A stretch of 64,000 bases of DNA. Source: Microvirga rosea. GTDB lineage: Bacteria; Pseudomonadota; Alphaproteobacteria; Rhizobiales; Beijerinckiaceae. The position numbers and the translations under genes were made by a program. Below the pieces are notes generated by a model. It was not told the origin of the DNA and did no database searches. It worked only from the letters and a program-made list of their open reading frames with translations. How positions within the stretch are numbered: position 1 is the first letter of the stretch; each line of letters opens with the position of its first letter. The DNA is taken from contig NZ_JAJDOP010000003.1 of the NCBI RefSeq assembly GCF_020595095.1, positions 186,001 to 250,000 on the forward strand, written 5' to 3'. Positions 23,893 through 33,467 of this stretch are shown one piece after another.

Positions 23893-25221
23893 ATGCGTTT
23901 GAGCCGCTATTTCCTGCCTATCCTCCGCGAAACGCCCAAAGAGGCGGAGATCGTCTCCCACCGGCTCATGCTGCGGGCCGGACTGATCCGCCAGGAAGCT
24001 GCAGGAATCTATGCCTGGCTGCCCCTGGGACTTCGCGTTTTGAACAAGGTCAACGCGATTATCCGGGAGGAGCAGAACCGTTCAGGGGCGATCGAGCTCC
24101 TCATGCCGACCATCCAGTCGGCGGACCTCTGGCGGGAGTCGGGACGGTACGATGCCTATGGCAAGGAAATGCTGCGCATCGAGGACCGGCACGAGCGGGA
24201 GATGCTGTTCGGTCCGACCAACGAAGAGATGGTGACGGAGATCTTCCGGGCCTATGTGCGCTCCTACAAGGATCTTCCTCTCAATCTCTACCATATTCAG
24301 TGGAAGTTCCGGGACGAAGTCCGGCCCCGCTTCGGGGTGATGCGCTCCCGCGAGTTCCTGATGAAGGACGCCTATTCCTTCGACCTTGACCAGGCCGGGG
24401 CCCGGCACTCCTACAACAAGATGTTCGTCGCCTACCTGCGGACCTTCGCCCGGCTCGGCTTGAAGGCCATCCCCATGCGGGCCGATACCGGTCCGATCGG
24501 TGGCGATCTGAGCCACGAGTTCATCATTCTCGCGTCGACCGGCGAAAGCGAGGTGTTTTGCCACGCCGACTATCTCGACTTCACGGTCCCGGCTGCGGAT
24601 ACGGATTTCGATAATGTCTCGGGATTGCAGGGCATCGTCGACAAGTGGACTTCGCTTTACGCCGCGACCTCCGAGATGCACGACACGACCGGGTTCGACG
24701 CTGTTCCGGACGACAAGAAGATGTCGGCGCGCGGCATCGAGGTCGGCCATATCTTCTATTTCGGCACCAAGTATTCGGCTCCCATGGGAGCAAAGGTCAT
24801 GGGGCCGGACGGGCAGGAGCACGAAGTCCACATGGGCTCGTACGGTATCGGTCCGAGCCGGCTGATCGCCGCGATTATCGAGGCGAGCCATGACGAAGGC
24901 GGGATCATATGGCCCGATGCGGTCGCTCCCTTCGACATCGCTCTTCTCAATCTCAAGGCCGGCGATGCTGCGACGGATGAGGCATGCGGCACCCTTTATC
25001 GGCAGCTGTCTGCTGCCGGCTATGATGTGCTCTACGATGATCGTGACGAGCGTCCGGGCGGAAAGTTCGCCACTGCCGATCTGATCGGCGTTCCCTGGCA
25101 GATCCTGATCGGGCCCAAGGGGCTTGCGGACGGCAAGGTCGAACTGAAGCGCCGTGCAACCGGAGAACGTGAGATTCTTCCCCTAGGCGACGTAATCGCG
25201 CGGCTCGGCACCCGTTCCTAA
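23893..25221 (+). CDS. proS: Prolyl-tRNA synthetase (short form)
   Basis: Charges tRNA-Pro in the cytosol; class II synthetase. At 442 residues it is the short form of alphaproteobacteria, which lacks the inserted editing domain found in the roughly 570-residue enterobacterial enzyme. Class II motif 2 is seen at [20 protein letters not shown], and motif 3 at [14 protein letters not shown]. The anticodon-binding domain fills the last 95 residues. It precedes lolC by 7 bp. Confidence 0.97.
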
Positions 25222-25228
25222 TCGCACG

Positions 25229-26503
25229 ATGGCCCAGGCAGAGCAAACCGGAACGAAGCCTTTCTCGCTCTTCGAGTGGATGCTCGCGGGACGCTACCTG
25301 CGTACCCGCCGGCGGGAAGGGTTCGTGTCGGTTATCGCCGGCTTCTCCTTCCTGGGGATCATGCTCGGTGTTGCGACTCTGATTGTCGTGCTCTCCGTGA
25401 TGAACGGCTTTCGCAAGGAGTTGCTGGACAAGATCGTCGGGATCAACGGTCATATTTTCGTTGCTCCCATTGAAACGCCGTTGACGGATTACGAGGAGGT
25501 CACCAAGCGGATCGCTGCGGTGCCCGGCGTGAAACGGGCATTGCCGATCATCGAAGGGCAGGCTTTCGGATCCTCGCCCTATGGCGGCAGCGGCGTCCTC
25601 GTCCGCGGCATTCGCGGCGAGGACTTGGGCAAGATTTCGCACATTGCCGACAACATTCGGCAGGGCACCCTGGAGAACTTCGACCAGGACAGCGGTGTCG
25701 CCATCGGACGACGCCTCGCGGAAGCGTTGTCGATCCAAGCAGGTGACACCTTGACGCTCATCACGCCCCGGGGCGCATCGACCCCGTTCGGGACGGCTCC
25801 CCGCATCAAGGGATATCCGGTCAAGGCCGTGTTCGAGATCGGCATGTCGGAATTCGACTCGAGTTTCGTCTATATGCCGCTGGCGGAAGCGCAAAGTTAC
25901 TTCAATCGTCCCAACGACGTGCAGTTGATCGAGGTTTATCTCGACAACGCGGACAAGGTCGATGAGGCAAGAGCCGCCATCGAGGAAGCCGCCGGACGAC
26001 AAATCCTGATGACGGACTGGCGCCAGAGGAATCGCACGTTCTTCGGTGCGCTCGAAGTGGAAAGAAACGTGATGTTTCTTATCCTCACGCTCATCGTTCT
26101 CGTGGCGGCGCTGAACATCATTTCCGGCCTGATCATGCTCGTGAAGGACAAATCCAGCGATATCGCGATTCTCCGGACCATGGGTGCGACGAGAGGCGCG
26201 GTCATGCGCGTCTTTCTGATCACGGGCGCATCCATCGGAATCGTCGGCACGATTGCCGGATTTGGGCTCGGATTGCTGTTGGCGCTCAACGTGGAGAGCA
26301 TCCGCAACTTCATCTCCTATCTTACCAACACCAACCTGTTCCCGGCGGAGCTCTACTTTCTCAGCCGCCTTCCGGCCGACGTGAATCCAACCGAGGTGAT
26401 CACGATCCTCGTGATGGCGATGGTCCTGTCCCTGCTCGCGACGCTTTATCCGTCATGGCGGGCCGCCAAGCTCGATCCCGTCGAGGCTTTGCGCTACGGG
26501 TAA
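25229..26503 (+). CDS. lolC: Lipoprotein-releasing ABC transporter permease (LolC/E type)
   Basis: Inner-membrane permease that extracts mature lipoproteins for transfer to the periplasmic carrier LolA. At 424 residues it has one N-terminal transmembrane helix (about 34-58), a periplasmic MacB-like domain of about 220 residues, and three C-terminal helices (about 280-410). A single gene of this type next to lolD implies a homodimeric LolF-like arrangement rather than a LolC/LolE pair, as is common outside gammaproteobacteria. It precedes lolD by 3 bp. Confidence 0.93.
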   Translation: MAQAEQTGTKPFSLFEWMLAGRYLRTRRREGFVSVIAGFSFLGIMLGVATLIVVLSVMNGFRKELLDKIVGINGHIFVAPIETPLTDYEEVTKRIAAVPGVKRALPIIEGQAFGSSPYGGSGVLVRGIRGEDLGKISHIADNIRQGTLENFDQDSGVAIGRRLAEALSIQAGDTLTLITPRGASTPFGTAPRIKGYPVKAVFEIGMSEFDSSFVYMPLAEAQSYFNRPNDVQLIEVYLDNADKVDEARAAIEEAAGRQILMTDWRQRNRTFFGALEVERNVMFLILTLIVLVAALNIISGLIMLVKDKSSDIAILRTMGATRGAVMRVFLITGASIGIVGTIAGFGLGLLLALNVESIRNFISYLTNTNLFPAELYFLSRLPADVNPTEVITILVMAMVLSLLATLYPSWRAAKLDPVEALRYG

Positions 26504-26506
26504 ATC

Positions 26507-27202
26507 ATGTCGTCCGGCCACCAGAAACCCGCTCTCTATCTGTCGAAAGTCGAACGGCGCTATCCGCAAGGGGAGGGCTTCCTCGAAGTCTTGCGCGGCG
26601 TCGATCTGGCAATCTGGCCGGGCGAGATCGTCGCTCTCATCGCGCCCTCGGGCACCGGCAAGTCAACGTTGCTGCATGTGGCGGGCTTGCTCGAAAAGCC
26701 GGACGGCGGCGAGGTTTTCGTCGGGGGAAAGCCGACCGCCGCCATGGGCGACCATGAACGCACACGCCTCCGCCGGGAGGAGCTGGGATTCGTGTACCAG
26801 TTCCACCATCTGCTGCCGGAATTCTCGGCCCTGGAAAACGTTGTGCTGCCTCAGCTCATTCGTGGCCTGAAGAAGGGTGATGCGCAGGAAAGGGCAACGC
26901 AGATTCTGACGTTCCTCGGCCTTGCCAAGCGCCTCGACAACCGTCCCGGCGAGTTATCCGGCGGCGAGCAGCAACGCGTCGCCATCGCACGCGCTGTCGC
27001 GAACGCGCCCCGTCTGCTGCTTGCGGATGAGCCGACCGGCAATCTCGATCCCAACACGGCTGATCGGGTGTTTCAGACGCTCGTTGCCATCGTGCGTGCA
27101 TCGAAGCTCGCTGCCCTGATCGCCACCCACAATCTCGATCTCGCGGCCCGTATGGATCGCCGGGTCACGATTCGCGACGGATTGGTTGTGCAGCTGCCCT
27201 GA
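26507..27202 (+). CDS. lolD: Lipoprotein-releasing ABC transporter ATP-binding protein LolD
   Basis: ATPase that powers lipoprotein release with the upstream permease. At 231 residues it has Walker [12 protein letters not shown] (about 46-56), Q-loop [13 protein letters not shown] signature [14 protein letters not shown], Walker [13 protein letters not shown] and an H-loop His in ATHN. The length and the PxFSALENV-type region suit the LolD/MacB subfamily. The start follows the lolC stop within 3 bp, so the two are co-translated. Confidence 0.95.
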
Positions 27203-27241
27203 ATCAGGGCCCTTCACCGTTTCATCGCCTGCAGGCCGGCC

Positions 27242-27258
27242 AGCCGCTTTCGGCTTTT
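27242..27258 (+). terminator. Weak hairpin with T-run after lolD
   Basis: AGCCG-CTTT-CGGCT followed by TTT, 40 bp after lolD. The 5-bp stem and short T-run make it a weak candidate. The lolD stop itself lies in GCCCT-GAATC-AGGGC (27196-27210), which has no T-tract. Confidence 0.3.
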
Positions 27259-27377
27259 ACCCGCCCGCGTCCTCTGCGTCGTGCTGCCTTTGCCCTCTGC
27301 CAGATCATCCCGATCCGCCCGACGGATGGCTCTTAACGCTTTGTTGACTCAGCGAGCAAAGCAGCAATATCCACTGC

Positions 27378-27406
27378 TTTACACAGAACATACAACGAAC
27401 AATGAT
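27378..27406 (+). promoter_or_regulatory. LexA-controlled promoter: SOS box between -35 and -10
   Basis: A -35 TTTACA (27378-27383, 5/6 match) and a -10 AATGAT (27401-27406, 4/6) are exactly 17 nt apart. The spacer contains GAAC-ATACAAC-GAAC (27386-27400), a perfect alphaproteobacterial SOS box (GTTC-N7-GTTC on the other strand), with a third GAAC at 27407-27410. LexA bound here would block RNA polymerase directly. The predicted transcript would begin near 27413, about 24 nt before the start codon of the small peptide gene. Confidence 0.8.
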
Positions 27407-27436
27407 GAACTTATCGAGAACACGGAGGTCATCATC

Positions 27437-27538
27437 ATGCTTCGCCTTATTCTGGAAACGGCCGCTGAAATCGCTTCCCTTGCCATGTTCGGTTCTGCCA
27501 TAGCCTTGTGGGCATTGGCGCTGTCTCCGATGGCATAA
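27437..27538 (+). CDS. 33-residue SOS-controlled membrane peptide (SidA-like candidate)
   Basis: Encodes MLRLILETAAEIASLAMFGS followed by AIALWALALSPMA, with one hydrophobic span over about residues 12-30 and almost no soluble part. GGAGG at 27424-27428 gives an ideal 8-nt spacing to the ATG, and the upstream promoter holds a perfect SOS box. Known precedent: Caulobacter SidA, a 29-residue LexA-repressed inner-membrane peptide that blocks cell division. I see no sequence proof of homology; the likeness is in size, topology and control. Alternatively it could be a small toxin-like or stress membrane peptide. It lies between lolD and dnaE. Confidence 0.7.
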   Translation: MLRLILETAAEIASLAMFGSAIALWALALSPMA

Positions 27539-27647
27539 TCCACCACGATGCACAGGAAGCTTTTCCTTCCGCAGGCTAGCAACCTTCGAGTCAGGAGAAT
27601 CGTGCCACAATACGCGCCGTACCGAGTTTGGTTTCCGAGTAGGCTTC

Positions 27648-30600
27648 ATGGCGCGCGTCCTCCACGATATCGGCTTCGTGCATCTGCACGTGCATTCCTC
27701 GTACTCTCTGCTCGAGGGGGCCCTGAAGATCGCGCAGCTGGCAAAGCTGGCGGCGGCGGACAAGCAACCGGCGCTGGCACTCACGGATACCAACAATCTG
27801 TTCGGCGGCTTGGAATTCTCCGAGAAGCTCGCAGGGGCGGGCATTCAGCCTATCGCCGGCGTTCAGCTGTCGGTTTGCTTCGAAGAGCCTGATCCGGTTG
27901 CCCGCGTTGCTCCACAGCCGGCAAACGTCGTGTTGCTTGCGCAGACCGACGAGGGCTATCGGAACCTCATGCGGCTTGTGAGCCATGCCTATTTCGGAGT
28001 GCCGCTGGGTGAGGCGCCGCGTGTCTTCGCTCCCGCCCTGGCTCAACACTGCGAAGGATTGATCGCGCTCACCGGCGGGTTTACGGGCCCCCTCGACTCC
28101 GCCCTGCGCAATGGGCGCCACGAAGTCGCGCAGGCCCGTCTCGATGTTCTGAAACATGCCTTCGGGCATCAACTCTATGTCGAGATCCAGCGGCATGGAC
28201 TGGATGAGGAGCGTCTCGTCGAGAACTCCCTGATCGATCTGGCGGACCGCAATGGCCTGCCCATCGTCGCTGCGAACGAGCCGTTCTTCTCTTCGCCCTC
28301 CGACTACGAAGCCCATGACGCCCTGCTGGCGATCGCGGAAGGCCGCATCGTTTCCGACGACAATCGTCGCCGGCTGTCGCCGCAGCACGATTTCAAGACG
28401 CGCAAGCAGATGATGGAGCTTTTCGCCGATCTGCCCGACGCGCTTCAAGCGACCGTCGAGATCGCGATGCGCTGCTCCACGCGCGTTCGGACCCGCAAGC
28501 CCATTCTGCCGAATTTCGGCGTCGGGCCCGGTGCCGCGACGCTCGACGAAGGCGAGGAGTTGCAGCGTCAGGCAGAGGAGGGGCTGCGCAGGCGTCTTGC
28601 CGCCCACGGTCCGGCGCCCGGGCTGACGGAACAGGATTATCACGACCGTCTCGCCTATGAGATCGGGATCATTCGGAACATGAAGTTTCCGGGTTACTTC
28701 CTGATCGTGTCGGACTTCATCAAGTGGGCGAAGGACCACAATATTCCGGTCGGTCCTGGGCGTGGTTCCGGTGCGGGATCCCTCGTGGCCTATGCGCTTA
28801 CGATCACCGACCTGGATCCCCTGCGCTTCAGCCTTCTGTTCGAACGCTTTCTCAACCCTGAACGCGTCTCGATGCCTGACTTCGACATCGACTTCTGCGT
28901 CGAGGGGCGCGAACGGGTGATTGAGTATGTGCAGCAGCGCTACGGCGAGGAGCAGGTAGCGCAGATCATCACGTTTGGAACGCTGCTCGCGCGCGGCGTG
29001 ATGCGGGATGTGGGCCGCGTGCTCGAAATGCCGTACGGGCAGGTCGACAAACTCACCAAGCTGGTCCCGCAGAATCCGGCAAATCCGGTCACGCTGGCCC
29101 AGGCCATCGAAGGCGAGCCGAAGCTCCAGACCGCCATCGAGGAAGAGCCTGTCGTCAAACGCATGCTCAATATCGCGCAGAAGCTGGAAGGGCTTCATCG
29201 CCATGCTTCGACCCATGCCGCCGGCGTGGTGATCGGCGACCGTCCGCTCCAGGAACTGGTGCCGCTCTACCGAGACCCGAAAACCGGCATGCGGGTGACC
29301 CAGTTCAACATGAAATGGGTCGAACAGGCCGGTCTGGTGAAGTTCGACTTCCTCGGACTGAAAACCCTTACGGTCCTTCGAACCGCCGTGGATCTCATCC
29401 GCCGAAGAGGAATCGAGGTGGATCTGTCGGCGCTGCCGCTCGACGACCGCAAGACCTACGAAATGCTCTGCCGCGGTGAAACGGTCGGTGTGTTCCAGGT
29501 GGAATCCGCGGGCATGCGCAAGGCCCTCGTGGAAATGGAAACGGACCGCTTCGAGGACATCATTGCTCTCGTGGCCCTCTATCGCCCGGGCCCGATGGCC
29601 AACATTCCCGTCTACTGCGCCCGCAAGCTCGGAAAGGACGAGCACAACAAGAAGGACTGGTATCCCCACGACAAGCTGGAGCCGATCCTCCGAGAGACCT
29701 TCGGCATCATCGTCTACCAAGAGCAGGTGATGGAGGTGGCGAAGGTCCTCTCCGGCTACTCGCTGGGAGACGCCGACCTGCTTCGCCGCGCCATGGGCAA
29801 GAAGATCAAGGCCGAGATGGACGCCCAGCGCGAGCGCTTCGTGTCCGGTGCGAAAGAGGGCGGTCTCGACAAGGCGAAGGCAAACGAGATCTTCGACCTT
29901 CTCGCCAAGTTCGCCGATTACGGCTTCAACAAGAGCCACGCTGCGGCCTATGCGCTGGTGGCGTTTCAGACGGCCTATCTGAAGGCGAATTACCCGGTCG
30001 AGTTTCTGGCCGCGTCGATGACGCTGGACTTGGACAACACCGACAAGCTCTCGGAATTCAGGCGTGAGGCGCAGCGTCTCGGAATCAAGGTCGAACCGCC
30101 GTCCATCAACCGCTCCGGTGTCGTGTTCGATGTGAAATACGACGGGGAGGGCAACGGCGCCATTCTCTATGCGCTCGCCGCCGTCAAGGGCGTCGGGCGT
30201 CAGGCGATCGAGGCCGTCATCGAGGCTCGCGGAGACAAACCCTTCGAGAGCCTCGCGGATTTCGCAAGGCGCATCAATCCGCGCATGCTGAACAAGCGTA
30301 CCCTGGAAAACCTCATCGCGGCCGGGGCATTCGACGAGATCGAGCCGGATCGCGCCAAGGCCTGCGCGGCCGTCGATGCCGTCATGAGCCTTGCCCAGCA
30401 ATGCCACGAGGCCGCAAACGGCGGGATGATCGACATGTTCGGCGGCGTCGCCTCGGCGGATGTCCAGTTGCGAATCCCCCAGTATGAGCCCTGGCCGGCG
30501 GCGGTGAAGCTGCAGAGGGAATACGACGCGGTCGGATTCTTCCTGTCGGGCCATCCGCTGGATGAGTACGGTGACCTCCTCAAGAAGCTGCGAGTCCAGA

Positions 30601-31118
30601 CCTGGGCCGAATTCAGCAGGTCCGTGAAGGCCGGCAATTCGGTCGGCCGCGTGGCCGCAACCGTGCTGGATCGCCAGGAGCGGCGGACCAAGACCGGCAA
30701 CAAAATGGGCATCATCAACCTTTCGGATCAGACAGGGCATTTCGAAGCGATCATCTTTTCGGAAGGATTGCAGCGCCTGCGCGACATCCTCGAACCGGGA
30801 AATGCCGTTGTCCTGATGCTTCAGGCCGGTGTCGACGGGGAAGAGGTCCGGGCCCGGATCGGTATGGCCGAGCTTCTGGAGGAGGCTGTTTCCAAGCACC
30901 AGAAGGGGATGCGGATTTTCCTGCGCGACGAGCGGCCGATCATCAGCGTCTTTGAGCGTTTGAAGGCCCGGGGCGAAGGCGAGGTCTCGCTGGTTCTGAT
31001 TCTCGACGACGGGGACCGCGAAGTGGAGGTAAAGCTGCCCGGTAAATACATGGCGTCTCCACAAGTGGCCGGGGCCATCCGCGCCGTTCCAGGCGTGGTG
31101 GACGTCCACATCAACTAG
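27648..31118 (+). CDS. dnaE: DNA polymerase III alpha subunit (replicative DnaE)
   Basis: Catalytic subunit of the replicative DNA polymerase holoenzyme. At 1156 residues it has the DnaE1 length. The N-terminal PHP domain begins with FVHLHVHSSYSLLEGA. The polymerase active site includes the aspartates in MPDFDIDFC (about 405-413), with the GPGRGSGAGSLVAYAL segment before it. The tail contains the helix-hairpin-helix region (GVGRQAIEAVIEARG) and an OB-fold. It is the replicative DnaE rather than the mutagenic DnaE2, since no imuA/imuB genes are nearby. It runs alone between the SOS peptide and rpsB. Confidence 0.97.
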   Translation: MARVLHDIGFVHLHVHSSYSLLEGALKIAQLAKLAAADKQPALALTDTNNLFGGLEFSEKLAGAGIQPIAGVQLSVCFEEPDPVARVAPQPANVVLLAQTDEGYRNLMRLVSHAYFGVPLGEAPRVFAPALAQHCEGLIALTGGFTGPLDSALRNGRHEVAQARLDVLKHAFGHQLYVEIQRHGLDEERLVENSLIDLADRNGLPIVAANEPFFSSPSDYEAHDALLAIAEGRIVSDDNRRRLSPQHDFKTRKQMMELFADLPDALQATVEIAMRCSTRVRTRKPILPNFGVGPGAATLDEGEELQRQAEEGLRRRLAAHGPAPGLTEQDYHDRLAYEIGIIRNMKFPGYFLIVSDFIKWAKDHNIPVGPGRGSGAGSLVAYALTITDLDPLRFSLLFERFLNPERVSMPDFDIDFCVEGRERVIEYVQQRYGEEQVAQIITFGTLLARGVMRDVGRVLEMPYGQVDKLTKLVPQNPANPVTLAQAIEGEPKLQTAIEEEPVVKRMLNIAQKLEGLHRHASTHAAGVVIGDRPLQELVPLYRDPKTGMRVTQFNMKWVEQAGLVKFDFLGLKTLTVLRTAVDLIRRRGIEVDLSALPLDDRKTYEMLCRGETVGVFQVESAGMRKALVEMETDRFEDIIALVALYRPGPMANIPVYCARKLGKDEHNKKDWYPHDKLEPILRETFGIIVYQEQVMEVAKVLSGYSLGDADLLRRAMGKKIKAEMDAQRERFVSGAKEGGLDKAKANEIFDLLAKFADYGFNKSHAAAYALVAFQTAYLKANYPVEFLAASMTLDLDNTDKLSEFRREAQRLGIKVEPPSINRSGVVFDVKYDGEGNGAILYALAAVKGVGRQAIEAVIEARGDKPFESLADFARRINPRMLNKRTLENLIAAGAFDEIEPDRAKACAAVDAVMSLAQQCHEAANGGMIDMFGGVASADVQLRIPQYEPWPAAVKLQREYDAVGFFLSGHPLDEYGDLLKKLRVQTWAEFSRSVKAGNSVGRVAATVLDRQERRTKTGNKMGIINLSDQTGHFEAIIFSEGLQRLRDILEPGNAVVLMLQAGVDGEEVRARIGMAELLEEAVSKHQKGMRIFLRDERPIISVFERLKARGEGEVSLVLILDDGDREVEVKLPGKYMASPQVAGAIRAVPGVVDVHIN

Positions 31119-31283
31119 CGCTCCGATGGGCGGCAGGCCTGAGCTTTGCAGAGCCGCCTGGCCAAAGCCGATGGCCGAAAGAGGTGCCGTGTCCCGGTTC
31201 CACCCTAGGTAAAACGCCGAAAAGCGAGTGTATCGGTCTCAGGCCCGGATCCGGGAGGCTCGGCCGTAAGAGGCAGTTTTCGC

Positions 31284-31312
31284 TTGCATTTCGAGGTCTT
31301 GGCACCTATATG
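31284..31312 (+). promoter_or_regulatory. Promoter of rpsB-tsf
   Basis: CTTGCAT gives a -35 at 31284-31289, and CCTATATG gives a -10 at 31307-31312 with exactly 17 nt between. This fits the alphaproteobacterial housekeeping pattern CTTGAC-N17-CTATAT. The resulting transcript would have a leader of about 97 nt before rpsB. Confidence 0.65.
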
Positions 31313-31327
31313 CGCGCTTATTCCACA

Positions 31328-31406
31328 CGCGGAGCCTGCTTCATGAGCCATGAAGCGTCCCGGTGGCCGGCAGAGCCGGTTCACTGCTCCGCGGAGGCTT
31401 AACCGG
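31328..31406 (+). promoter_or_regulatory. Structured rpsB leader with possible anti-Shine-Dalgarno pairing
   Basis: A closing stem CGCGGAGC (31328-31335) with GCTCCGCG (31386-31393), perfect over 8 bp, encloses the hairpin GCTTCATG-AGC-CATGAAGC (31338-31356, 8 bp) and a second GC-rich hairpin around 31367-31380. CCGGTT (31376-31381) can also pair with AACCGG (31401-31406), which overlaps the GGAG ribosome-binding site at 31405-31408. The last pairing competes with the second hairpin. This is the layout of an autogenous translational control site for S2. Confidence 0.55.
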
Positions 31407-31416
31407 AGAAAAGATT

Positions 31417-32430
31417 ATGGCGCTTCCTGATTTCTCGATGCGTCAGCTGTTGGAAGCTGGCGCTCACTTTGGCCACCAGGCCCACCGTTGGAACCCGAAG
31501 ATGGGACAGTACATCTTCGGCACCCGCAACAACATCCACATTATCGATCTGGCCCAGACGGTTCCGATGCTGCACCGCGCCCTTCAGGCGGTCAGCGACA
31601 CGGTAGCCAAGGGCGGCCGCGTGCTGTTCGTCGGCACCAAGCGTCAGGCGGCCGATTCGGTTGCAGATGCGGCCAAGCGTTCGGCGCAGTATTACGTGAA
31701 CTCCCGTTGGCTCGGCGGCATGCTGACCAACTGGAAGACGATCTCGGGTTCGATCCAGCGTCTGCGGAAGGTCGACGAGGTTCTCGCCGGCGGCGGCCAG
31801 GGCCTGACCAAGAAAGAGCGTCTCATGCTCGCCCGCGAGAAGGAAAAGCTCGAGCGCGCGCTTGGCGGTATCAAGGACATGGGCGGCACGCCCGACCTGA
31901 TCTTCGTCATCGACACCAACAAGGAACAGCTGGCGATCCAGGAGGCCAAGCGCCTCGGCATTCCGGTTGCGGCCATTGTTGACACGAACTGCGATCCGGA
32001 CGGTATCACCTTCCCGGTTCCGGCCAACGACGATGCTGGCCGCGCGATTTCGCTTTACTGCGATCTTATTTCGCGCGCTGCTCTCGACGGCATCTCCCGC
32101 AGCGCCGGCGCGATGGGCATTGATATCGGCGAGTCGGATAACCCGATGGCCGAGGAACTTCCCGCGAGCGACGTCGCCCTGTCCGAGCAGGAAGAGCAGT
32201 TCGAGCGTCTCGCGGCTCCCCGTGGCGCCCCGGACGATCTGACCAAGCTCACGGGCGTCGGCCCGCAGCTCGAGAAGAAGCTGAATGAAGCCGGTATCTT
32301 CCACTATTGGCAGATCTCCGCCATGAAGCCGGCCGATGTCGAACAGCTGGACAAGGATCTGAAGCTGAACGGTCGTGTCGACCGCGACGGCTGGATCAAT
32401 CAGGCCCGCACGCTGATCGAGGCGGCCTAA
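31417..32430 (+). CDS. rpsB: 30S ribosomal protein S2 with C-terminal extension
   Basis: Assembles late on the 30S subunit and is needed to bind S1. At 337 residues it is about 90-100 longer than the E. coli protein. The core ([21 protein letters not shown] to about residue 240) is normal, including the [19 protein letters not shown] segment. From about 273 to the end, [22 protein letters not shown] resembles a helix-hairpin-helix/SAP-like domain of about 65 residues; such tails on S2 are known in Hyphomicrobiales. ATG 31417 follows GGAGAAAAGATT. Confidence 0.97.
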
Positions 32431-32537
32431 AGCCGATCCGGCGCCATGAAGACGGCGCCTCTCGACTGGAAGTGATCAGCCCGGCGTTCTCTGGACGCCG
32501 GGCTCCCCATATGTACGAACCCGTGAAAGGACGAGCC

Positions 32538-33467
32538 ATGGCGAACATTACCGCTGCGATGGTGAAGGAGCTGCGCGAAAAGACCAGCGCCGGCATGATG
32601 GACTGCAAGACGGCTCTCAACGAGACCAACGGCGACATCGAGGCTGCGGTCGACTGGCTGCGCAAGAAGGGTCTTTCCAAGGCTGCCAAGAAGGCCGGCC
32701 GCGTGGCGGCCGAGGGTCTCGTCGCGGTTGAATCCTCCGGGCACACGGCGGCGATCCTCGAGGTCAACTCCGAGACGGACTTCGTGGCCCGCAATGACAG
32801 CTTCCAGGCTTTCGCCCGCGAAGCCGCCAAGATCGCCCTGATGGGCGACGGCTCGATCGAATCCCTCGAGGGCGCCCATTTCCCGGGCTCGCAGACCACG
32901 GTGAAGGACCGCCTTCAGGAACTGATCGCGACGATCGGCGAGAACATGACGTTGCGTCGTGTTTCCAAGCTGACGGTGTCGAAGGGCGTCATCGCCTCCT
33001 ATGTGCACAATGCGGTCAGCGAGGGTCTCGGCAAGATCGGCGTGCTCGTTGCCCTGGAATCCGAAGGGGATGTGGAGGCGCTCAGCGCCCTCGGACGCCA
33101 GATCGCCATGCACGTGGCCGCCACGAACCCGCTTGCCGTCGATGCCTCGGGTATCGACGCGGCGACGCTTGAGCGTGAAAGCGCGATCCTGCGTGAGAAG
33201 AACGCCGGGAAGCCGGACCACGTCATGCAGAAGATCGTCGAGAGCGGCCTGAAGAGCTATTACAAGGAAGTCACTCTCCTTGAGCAGTCCTTCGTGCACG
33301 ACCCGTCGAAGACGGTGACCCAGGTCCTCAAGGAGGCCGAGTCGAAGGCCGGCAAGCCCGTGGCTCTCAAAGGCTTCGTCCGCTATGCCCTCGGCGAGGG
33401 CATCGAGAAGGAAGAAGCCCCCGATTTCGCGGCCGAGGTGGCTGCGGCGGCCGGCGGCAAGGCCTAA
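32538..33467 (+). CDS. tsf: Translation elongation factor Ts
   Basis: Guanine nucleotide exchange factor for EF-Tu. At 309 residues it has the usual bacterial length. The N-terminal UBA-like domain ([16 protein letters not shown]), the core TDFVARND motif (about 82-89) and the C-terminal dimer helix are present. ATG 32538 is preceded by AAGGACGAGCC. It follows rpsB by 107 bp in the standard rpsB-tsf pair, and a terminator follows. Confidence 0.97.

Follow-up and report, generated by a model that had tools for sequence, protein, structure and literature searches.

A 33-residue peptide gene with predicted LexA operators in Microvirga rosea is a probable orthologue of Caulobacter sidA

A 33-codon gene in the 64,000-nucleotide stretch of Microvirga rosea DNA analyzed here (the window) is very probably the Microvirga orthologue of sidA; LexA cleavage would release a peptide that holds FtsW/FtsI/FtsN inactive until repair is done. 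What supports orthology with SidA is the dnaE-adjacent place of the gene, its type of operator, a similar size of product and profile homology via intermediates. The predicted operators make LexA, the DNA-damage repressor, the probable switch of the gene. Sequence is the basis for the promoter, the operators and the homology, and the proposed division arrest is carried over from Caulobacter. Coordinates of the features at the locus are collected in Table 1.

Table 1. Features of the candidate sidA-family locus and its neighbours, in window coordinates.
Feature	Position	Strand	Comment
-35 hexamer TTTACA	27378..27383	+	read letter by letter; also from sigma-70 scan and Microvirga promoter alignment
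LexA box 1 (predicted), GAACATACAACGAAC	27386..27400	+	perfect GAAC-N7-GAAC between -35 and -10
-10 hexamer AATGAT	27401..27406	+	between both LexA boxes; weak consensus match, 4/6
LexA box 2 (predicted), GAACTTATCGAGAAC	27407..27421	+	perfect GAAC-N7-GAAC across the likely transcription start
Shine-Dalgarno GGAGG	27424..27428	+	8 nt 5' of ATG
sidA-family gene, 33-residue product MLRLILETAAEIASLAMFGSAIALWALALSPMA	27437..27538	+	stop included; one predicted membrane span, about residues 12-30
dnaE, DNA polymerase III alpha	27648..31118	+	stronger of the genome's two DnaE matches; usual downstream neighbour
ABC ATPase, presumably LolD type	26507..27202	+	upstream neighbour; named by eye and recall

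A first-pass annotation of this DNA had described a promoter, a LexA-type box, GGAGG, an ATG and a 33-codon ORF, and the arrangement as a whole was borne out letter by letter. This includes the two promoter hexamers, which are separated by 17 nt (27378-27406) and enclose a perfect GAAC-N7-GAAC box. The annotation had also seen a third GAAC after the promoter, which is present; a fourth had been overlooked, and together the two make a second perfect box. The result is a GAAC-N7-GAAC-N6-GAAC-N7-GAAC array of 36 bp, in which the box starts lie 21 bp, or about two helical turns, apart. A promoter scan of 27150-27700 returned a single sigma-70-like site with 9/12 matches (shuffles: mean 0.2, sd 0.4). 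The best 19-residue mean hydropathy of the product is 1.89, compared with 2.08 for the C. vibrioides peptide described below. A longer in-frame ORF of 85 aa from 27281 was rejected, as it crosses the promoter and as a stop lies within ten codons 5' of the ATG in 14 of 20 correctly oriented relatives, the window copy included.

The ORF is under selection at the protein level. Of 48 Microvirga genomes searched, 47 have the peptide, among them the window genome; a profile brought the weakest match (G007) to E 3e-8. Every one of the 47 Microvirga copies read is 33 residues long. Across 45 distinct sequences dN/dS was 0.18, the two shifted frames gave 1.2 and 4.3, and the mean entropy at codon positions 1, 2, and 3 was 0.39, 0.15, and 0.99. 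ORFs of such length are common, with 95 of at least 25 codons overlapping 24000-33000, and in this respect a chance ORF next to a genuine LexA site might be proposed. The substitution pattern already refutes that proposal, and the constant length and the presence of relatives in many families further reduce its probability to a negligible level.

Forty-five of the 50 Microvirga loci were parsed, with L038 and L047-L050 left out at first; the dN/dS value derives from 45 sequences and the promoter columns given below from 44, aligned on CTTTACA. L047 and L048, read separately, each show the two boxes and a 33-residue product. The remaining three (L038 in G027, L049 in G007, L050 in G014) are second, box-less copies, two of them with a stop or a lost start, and are probably decayed paralogues. 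Searches of Pfam and NCBIfam with five family members gave no model above cut-off and a single match at chance level (E 0.36); many genomes therefore probably lack an annotation of the gene.

A single LexA box was rejected as evidence, because the genome holds 176 GAAC-N7-GAAC boxes as compared to 146 matches of the reversed pattern. The four-GAAC array is expected 0.0015 times per genome from base composition and was found once. Its exact form occurs once per genome in 43 of the 48 Microvirga genomes and is absent from the other five, and the reversed pattern of the array has 0 matches in the 48. In a place-by-place comparison, all 43 arrays sit just 5' of the peptide match. Four of the array-less genomes (G018, G021, G034, G002) have one perfect box each, and the fifth, the fragmented G026, gave no convincing peptide match (E 0.3 pairwise, 0.5 in the profile search). 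In the 44 aligned promoters CTTTACA is identical throughout, in an alignment anchored on CTTTACA itself, and 13 of the 16 GAAC letters are invariant, with the remaining three at 95-98%.

For comparison with Caulobacter we used genome G676, which we take to be C. vibrioides from a 100% match to PopZ. Upstream of its dnaE lie one perfect box, GAACATCTTGTGAAC, and a 29-codon ORF, and a candidate relative lies upstream of dnaE in 29 of 30 Caulobacteraceae genomes. The window peptide and the C. vibrioides peptide have the pattern [LI]-[VA]-S-[VL]-x-x-F in common. Excerpts of PMC4211646 describe SidA as a 29-residue inner-membrane protein that acts through FtsW and interacts with FtsW and FtsN, and give a LexA box consensus of the GTTC-N7-GTTC type. 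By published locus numbers, sidA is CCNA_02004 (PMC10769358), dnaE of Caulobacter is CC1926 (PMC1839093) and recN is both CC1983 (PMC1839093) and ccna_02062 (PMC12700426). With recN as the single anchor gene, the two numberings differ by 79, and dnaE and sidA then come to lie about two numbers apart at most. The 29-codon ORF of G676 agrees with the published SidA in length, place and locus number and may be identical to it.

Homology to SidA was obtained through intermediates. In profile-profile comparisons, the Microvirga family matched the rest of the order at E 1.7e-11, and the order matched the Caulobacteraceae at E 1.4e-7, with 0 of 200 column permutations as good in each case. The direct comparison of the Microvirga family with the Caulobacteraceae is weak on its own (E 0.0025, probability 12%, 3 of 200 permutations as good), and therefore the link between the two needs the intermediates. 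A first-round profile brought up no Caulobacteraceae peptide below E 0.7.

The window gene resembles SidA of C. crescentus in size (33 vs 29 residues), in its one predicted span, in the LexA-type boxes at its promoter, two of them and both perfect, and in its place 5' of dnaE. The Microvirga peptide differs in being four residues longer and in having Glu11 and later Trp-Ala where the SidA type has Phe-Val-Trp-Met. A further difference lies in the operators, which in Microvirga are two perfect boxes in exact 21-bp register, whereas the G676 ORF has one perfect box. Excerpts of PMC12700426 report a single LexA box at ~97% of Caulobacter SOS promoters.

Outside Microvirga, pairwise searches gave weak matches only (best E 0.006), and we therefore turned to synteny with dnaE. 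The stretches 5' of dnaE were read in 284 loci: 80 + 43 in the family holding Microvirga, Methylobacterium, Bosea, and Chelatococcus, which we take to be the Beijerinckiaceae of GTDB; 65 in other families of the order; 66 in other families of the class; and 30 in the C. vibrioides family. Eleven family loci are the same stretch read twice, which reduces the 80 + 43 to 112 distinct loci, and the 18 Microvirga loci of the 80-locus set come largely from the same species as L001-L050. At L055, L058, and L074 the dnaE motif was absent and an approximate start was used.

An alignment-free rule, which asked for a perfect box followed by a hydrophobic ORF of 26-45 codons starting no more than 85 nt on, was satisfied at 82 of the 112 distinct family loci (61/80 and 27/43 with doubles). 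Elsewhere it was satisfied at 34 of 65 loci in the order, 9 of 66 in the class and 20 of 30 in the Caulobacteraceae. An iterated profile, seeded solely with peptides of Microvirga's family, matched 89 of the 112 family loci (63/80 and 32/43 with doubles), 40 of 65 in the order, 2 of 66 in the class and 29 of 30 in the Caulobacteraceae. Of 8,257 shuffled segments none reached E<0.01, whether scored with the seed model, any of the four tested iterations or the final model (best 0.2), and the sole antisense profile match is the M. solisilvae gene itself, which is inverted.

By rule or profile, candidates are present in 17 of the 29 other families of the order and in 6 of the 46 other families of the class. 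Most class-level candidates come from the rule alone, and they are the least certain. Nothing was found within 600-700 nt upstream of dnaE in 12 of the 29 order families and 40 of the 46 class families, and loss, divergence or replacement would therefore be common; one of the 12 order families (f20) has the gene more than 600 nt upstream of dnaE. The reading of absence beside dnaE as gene loss was corrected for several genera by a profile search of 22 chosen whole genomes, most of them picked for an empty stretch beside dnaE. Ten of these gave a match below E 0.05, and 12 gave none, including both Enterovirga genomes and Microvirga G026. Enterovirga (genus g81; G127, G162) has no peptide beside dnaE and no whole-genome profile match below E 0.1, an apparent loss or divergence of the peptide gene.

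The LexA-type box accompanies the peptide outside the seed family. Boxes near the start were counted at 162 of 166 profile-positive loci; the rest had no usable start or too short an upstream stretch. Because the seed peptides had been chosen by their box, the counts within the family are partly circular, and we quote the 68 profile-positive order, class, and Caulobacteraceae loci outside it. A perfect box stands just 5' of the start in 55 of these 68, and a box with at most one mismatch in 66. In a control stretch 200 nt further upstream the corresponding counts were 0/67 and 3/67, and for a box in the opposite orientation at the same place they were 4/68 and 8/68. Box pairs, spaced by 15-30 bp and with no more than one mismatch per box, were present at 19 of 29 Caulobacteraceae loci, mostly at 16-18 bp; at 25 of 94 loci in the seed family, where the spacings counted were 21 bp; and at 5 of 38 order loci.

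Linkage to dnaE is dispensable. In M. solisilvae (L199 / L025, G016:C1:534535-534682) the gene and both boxes are inverted relative to dnaE. Among the ten genomes with a whole-genome match, seven have the copy away from dnaE (Methylobacterium G055, Chelatococcus G102 and G196, g74 G157 and G120, Salinarimonas G107 and G176) and three upstream of it (G007, G079, G919); at the best match of every one of these ten genomes, a box with no more than one mismatch stands 150 nt or less 5' of the matched start. As boxes are kept at all relocated copies, it is the peptide and not dnaE that keeps the operator. In the two Salinarimonas genomes the gene stands behind a gene that by eye is of LolD type, and dnaE is at least 90 kb off.

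The inversion of the gene together with its operator, the seven relocated copies with their boxes and the selection at the amino-acid level all argue against a leader ORF, by which the LexA promoter would serve SOS control of dnaE and the peptide would be incidental or regulatory. The gene does adjoin dnaE in many lineages, and read-through into it is possible, since the scans of 27150-27700 found no terminator-like site and no other sigma-70-like site; nonetheless, we regard a leader ORF as highly improbable. The position upstream of dnaE, by which the first-pass annotation had placed the gene, is usual and not defining, and dnaE is treated here as a neighbour of the peptide unit.

Two further observations concern copies of unusual context. 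At the relocated copies (L365, L366, L368, L370-L373) the neighbour is, by eye, an MltB-type transglycosylase in Chelatococcus or a catalase-peroxidase in g74. In family f11 (L282 in G070 and L289 in G997) the conserved span is the C-terminal end of an ORF of ~110 residues, with a LexA-type box 5' that is perfect in G070 and has one mismatch in G997. These long ORFs are a possible fused form of the peptide.

The layout suggests how the gene may work as a sidA orthologue. In undamaged cells, LexA would occupy the two adjacent operators, which flank the -10 and cover the likely start, and would keep the promoter shut. Upon damage, active RecA would lead to LexA self-cleavage, and the good ribosome site would then allow a burst of the 33-residue peptide. 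This would insert as a single span, with a cytoplasmic N-terminus as suggested by Arg3, and, by analogy with Caulobacter, would hold the late divisome complex FtsW/FtsI/FtsN inactive, so that septation waits for repair. Holding these proteins inactive is the model favoured for SidA in excerpts of PMC4211646. The doubled operator probably keeps the basal level of the peptide very low, and such tight repression would be sensible because the peptide is expected to stop growth.

A membrane peptide induced by the SOS response could also act by depolarizing the membrane, in the manner of E. coli TisB or DinQ, and lead to dormancy with no specific block of the divisome. TisB is an SOS-regulated short membrane peptide, as is DinQ, and the window peptide, whose regulation is read from its sequence, has the same gross design of LexA-type boxes, ~30 residues and one span. 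DinQ is a known single-span SOS peptide (excerpts of PMC3567139) and has the antisense RNAs agrA and agrB. Around the window gene, a search of Rfam over 26900-27900 gave no family above threshold, including any antisense regulator, and one subthreshold miRNA match, although the lack of an Rfam match counts for little. By eye the span does not look amphipathic, and the profile link and the place are those of SidA. We therefore consider the depolarizing function unlikely.

As a SidA relative, the peptide can also be set beside other damage-induced division inhibitors. DidA of Caulobacter (71 aa) is likewise small, with a single span and induced by damage, but is longer, binds FtsN and is induced by DriD and not LexA (excerpts of PMC4211646). 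The window peptide, with 33 aa and LexA-type boxes, does not fit a product of ~71 aa under SOS-independent DriD induction. In excerpts of PMC13396833, the Gram-positive YneA, SosA, and ChiZ are damage-induced, membrane-anchored division inhibitors predicted to act on FtsW; a LysM domain in ChiZ and an extended helix in SosA set these two apart from the SidA type. For SidA the same excerpts predict binding to the side of FtsW TM7 opposite to that used by YneA, SosA, and ChiZ, in models that PMC13396833 itself gives as low-confidence.

Taken with the distribution across families, these data make it likely that SidA is no Caulobacter speciality and that, as a checkpoint on division in the SOS response, it is ancestral to a large part of the Alphaproteobacteria. 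The gene would be old, mostly vertically inherited and part of a self-contained unit of LexA box and peptide that keeps its boxes when inverted, moved or fused, and would have been overlooked because it is ~30 codons long. The first-pass annotation had proposed a single-span membrane peptide under SOS/LexA control; the peptide is real and conserved, and the two perfect boxes and the recurrence of the array at this promoter support the control. Its comparison with SidA holds, and its label "SidA-like" was too cautious in view of the orthology evidence. The conservation upstream of dnaE that it had suggested looking for in related genomes was found, with ORF and box kept in Microvirga and many other families. 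Its further suggestion, an undescribed checkpoint peptide of Hyphomicrobiales, stands in that no description in this order was among the literature matches listed, but the peptide is of a known kind and extends beyond the order.

The wide distribution of SidA-family peptides is thus the new part, and the kind of peptide was already known. Among the matches listed in a literature search, which had most subscription papers beyond its reach, none treated SidA relatives outside Caulobacter; some of these matches were, by title, about hydroxylases, the uptake of iron or metals in fungi, fungal genomes or the plant Sida. If our reading is true, combining one profile with the LexA box readily supplies a candidate in Microvirga, Methylobacterium, Bosea, Chelatococcus, and other families of the order, and natural variation among the members would reveal the divisome-contacting residues within a 30-residue span.

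The same box was also followed to other genes of the window genome. Twenty stretches were inspected: 19 with A+T-rich or tandem spacers, chosen among 100 of the 176 box places, and one 5' of the second DnaE gene. Most of the 20 showed no recognisable repair gene. Within this selected set, the box precedes two imuA-like ORFs (one by family search, one by eye), two radical SAM ORFs, of which one is of a DNA-repair type, and a DNA polymerase IV ORF; the four pieces put to family search had been cut to 141-150 residues and their scores lie below the curated cut-offs. By association only, GAAC-N7-GAAC can be taken to act as a LexA box in this genome. The two imuA-like ORFs, L353 (G000:C12:206100-208600) and L363 (G000:C37:20500-24700), have the identical box GAACATAATAGGAAC, and only one second DnaE-type polymerase (C37) was found for the two of them. 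A further adjacent pair of LexA-type boxes, L356 (G000:C12:576920-576952), lies 5' of a PA0069-type radical SAM ORF, a match below the curated cut-off.
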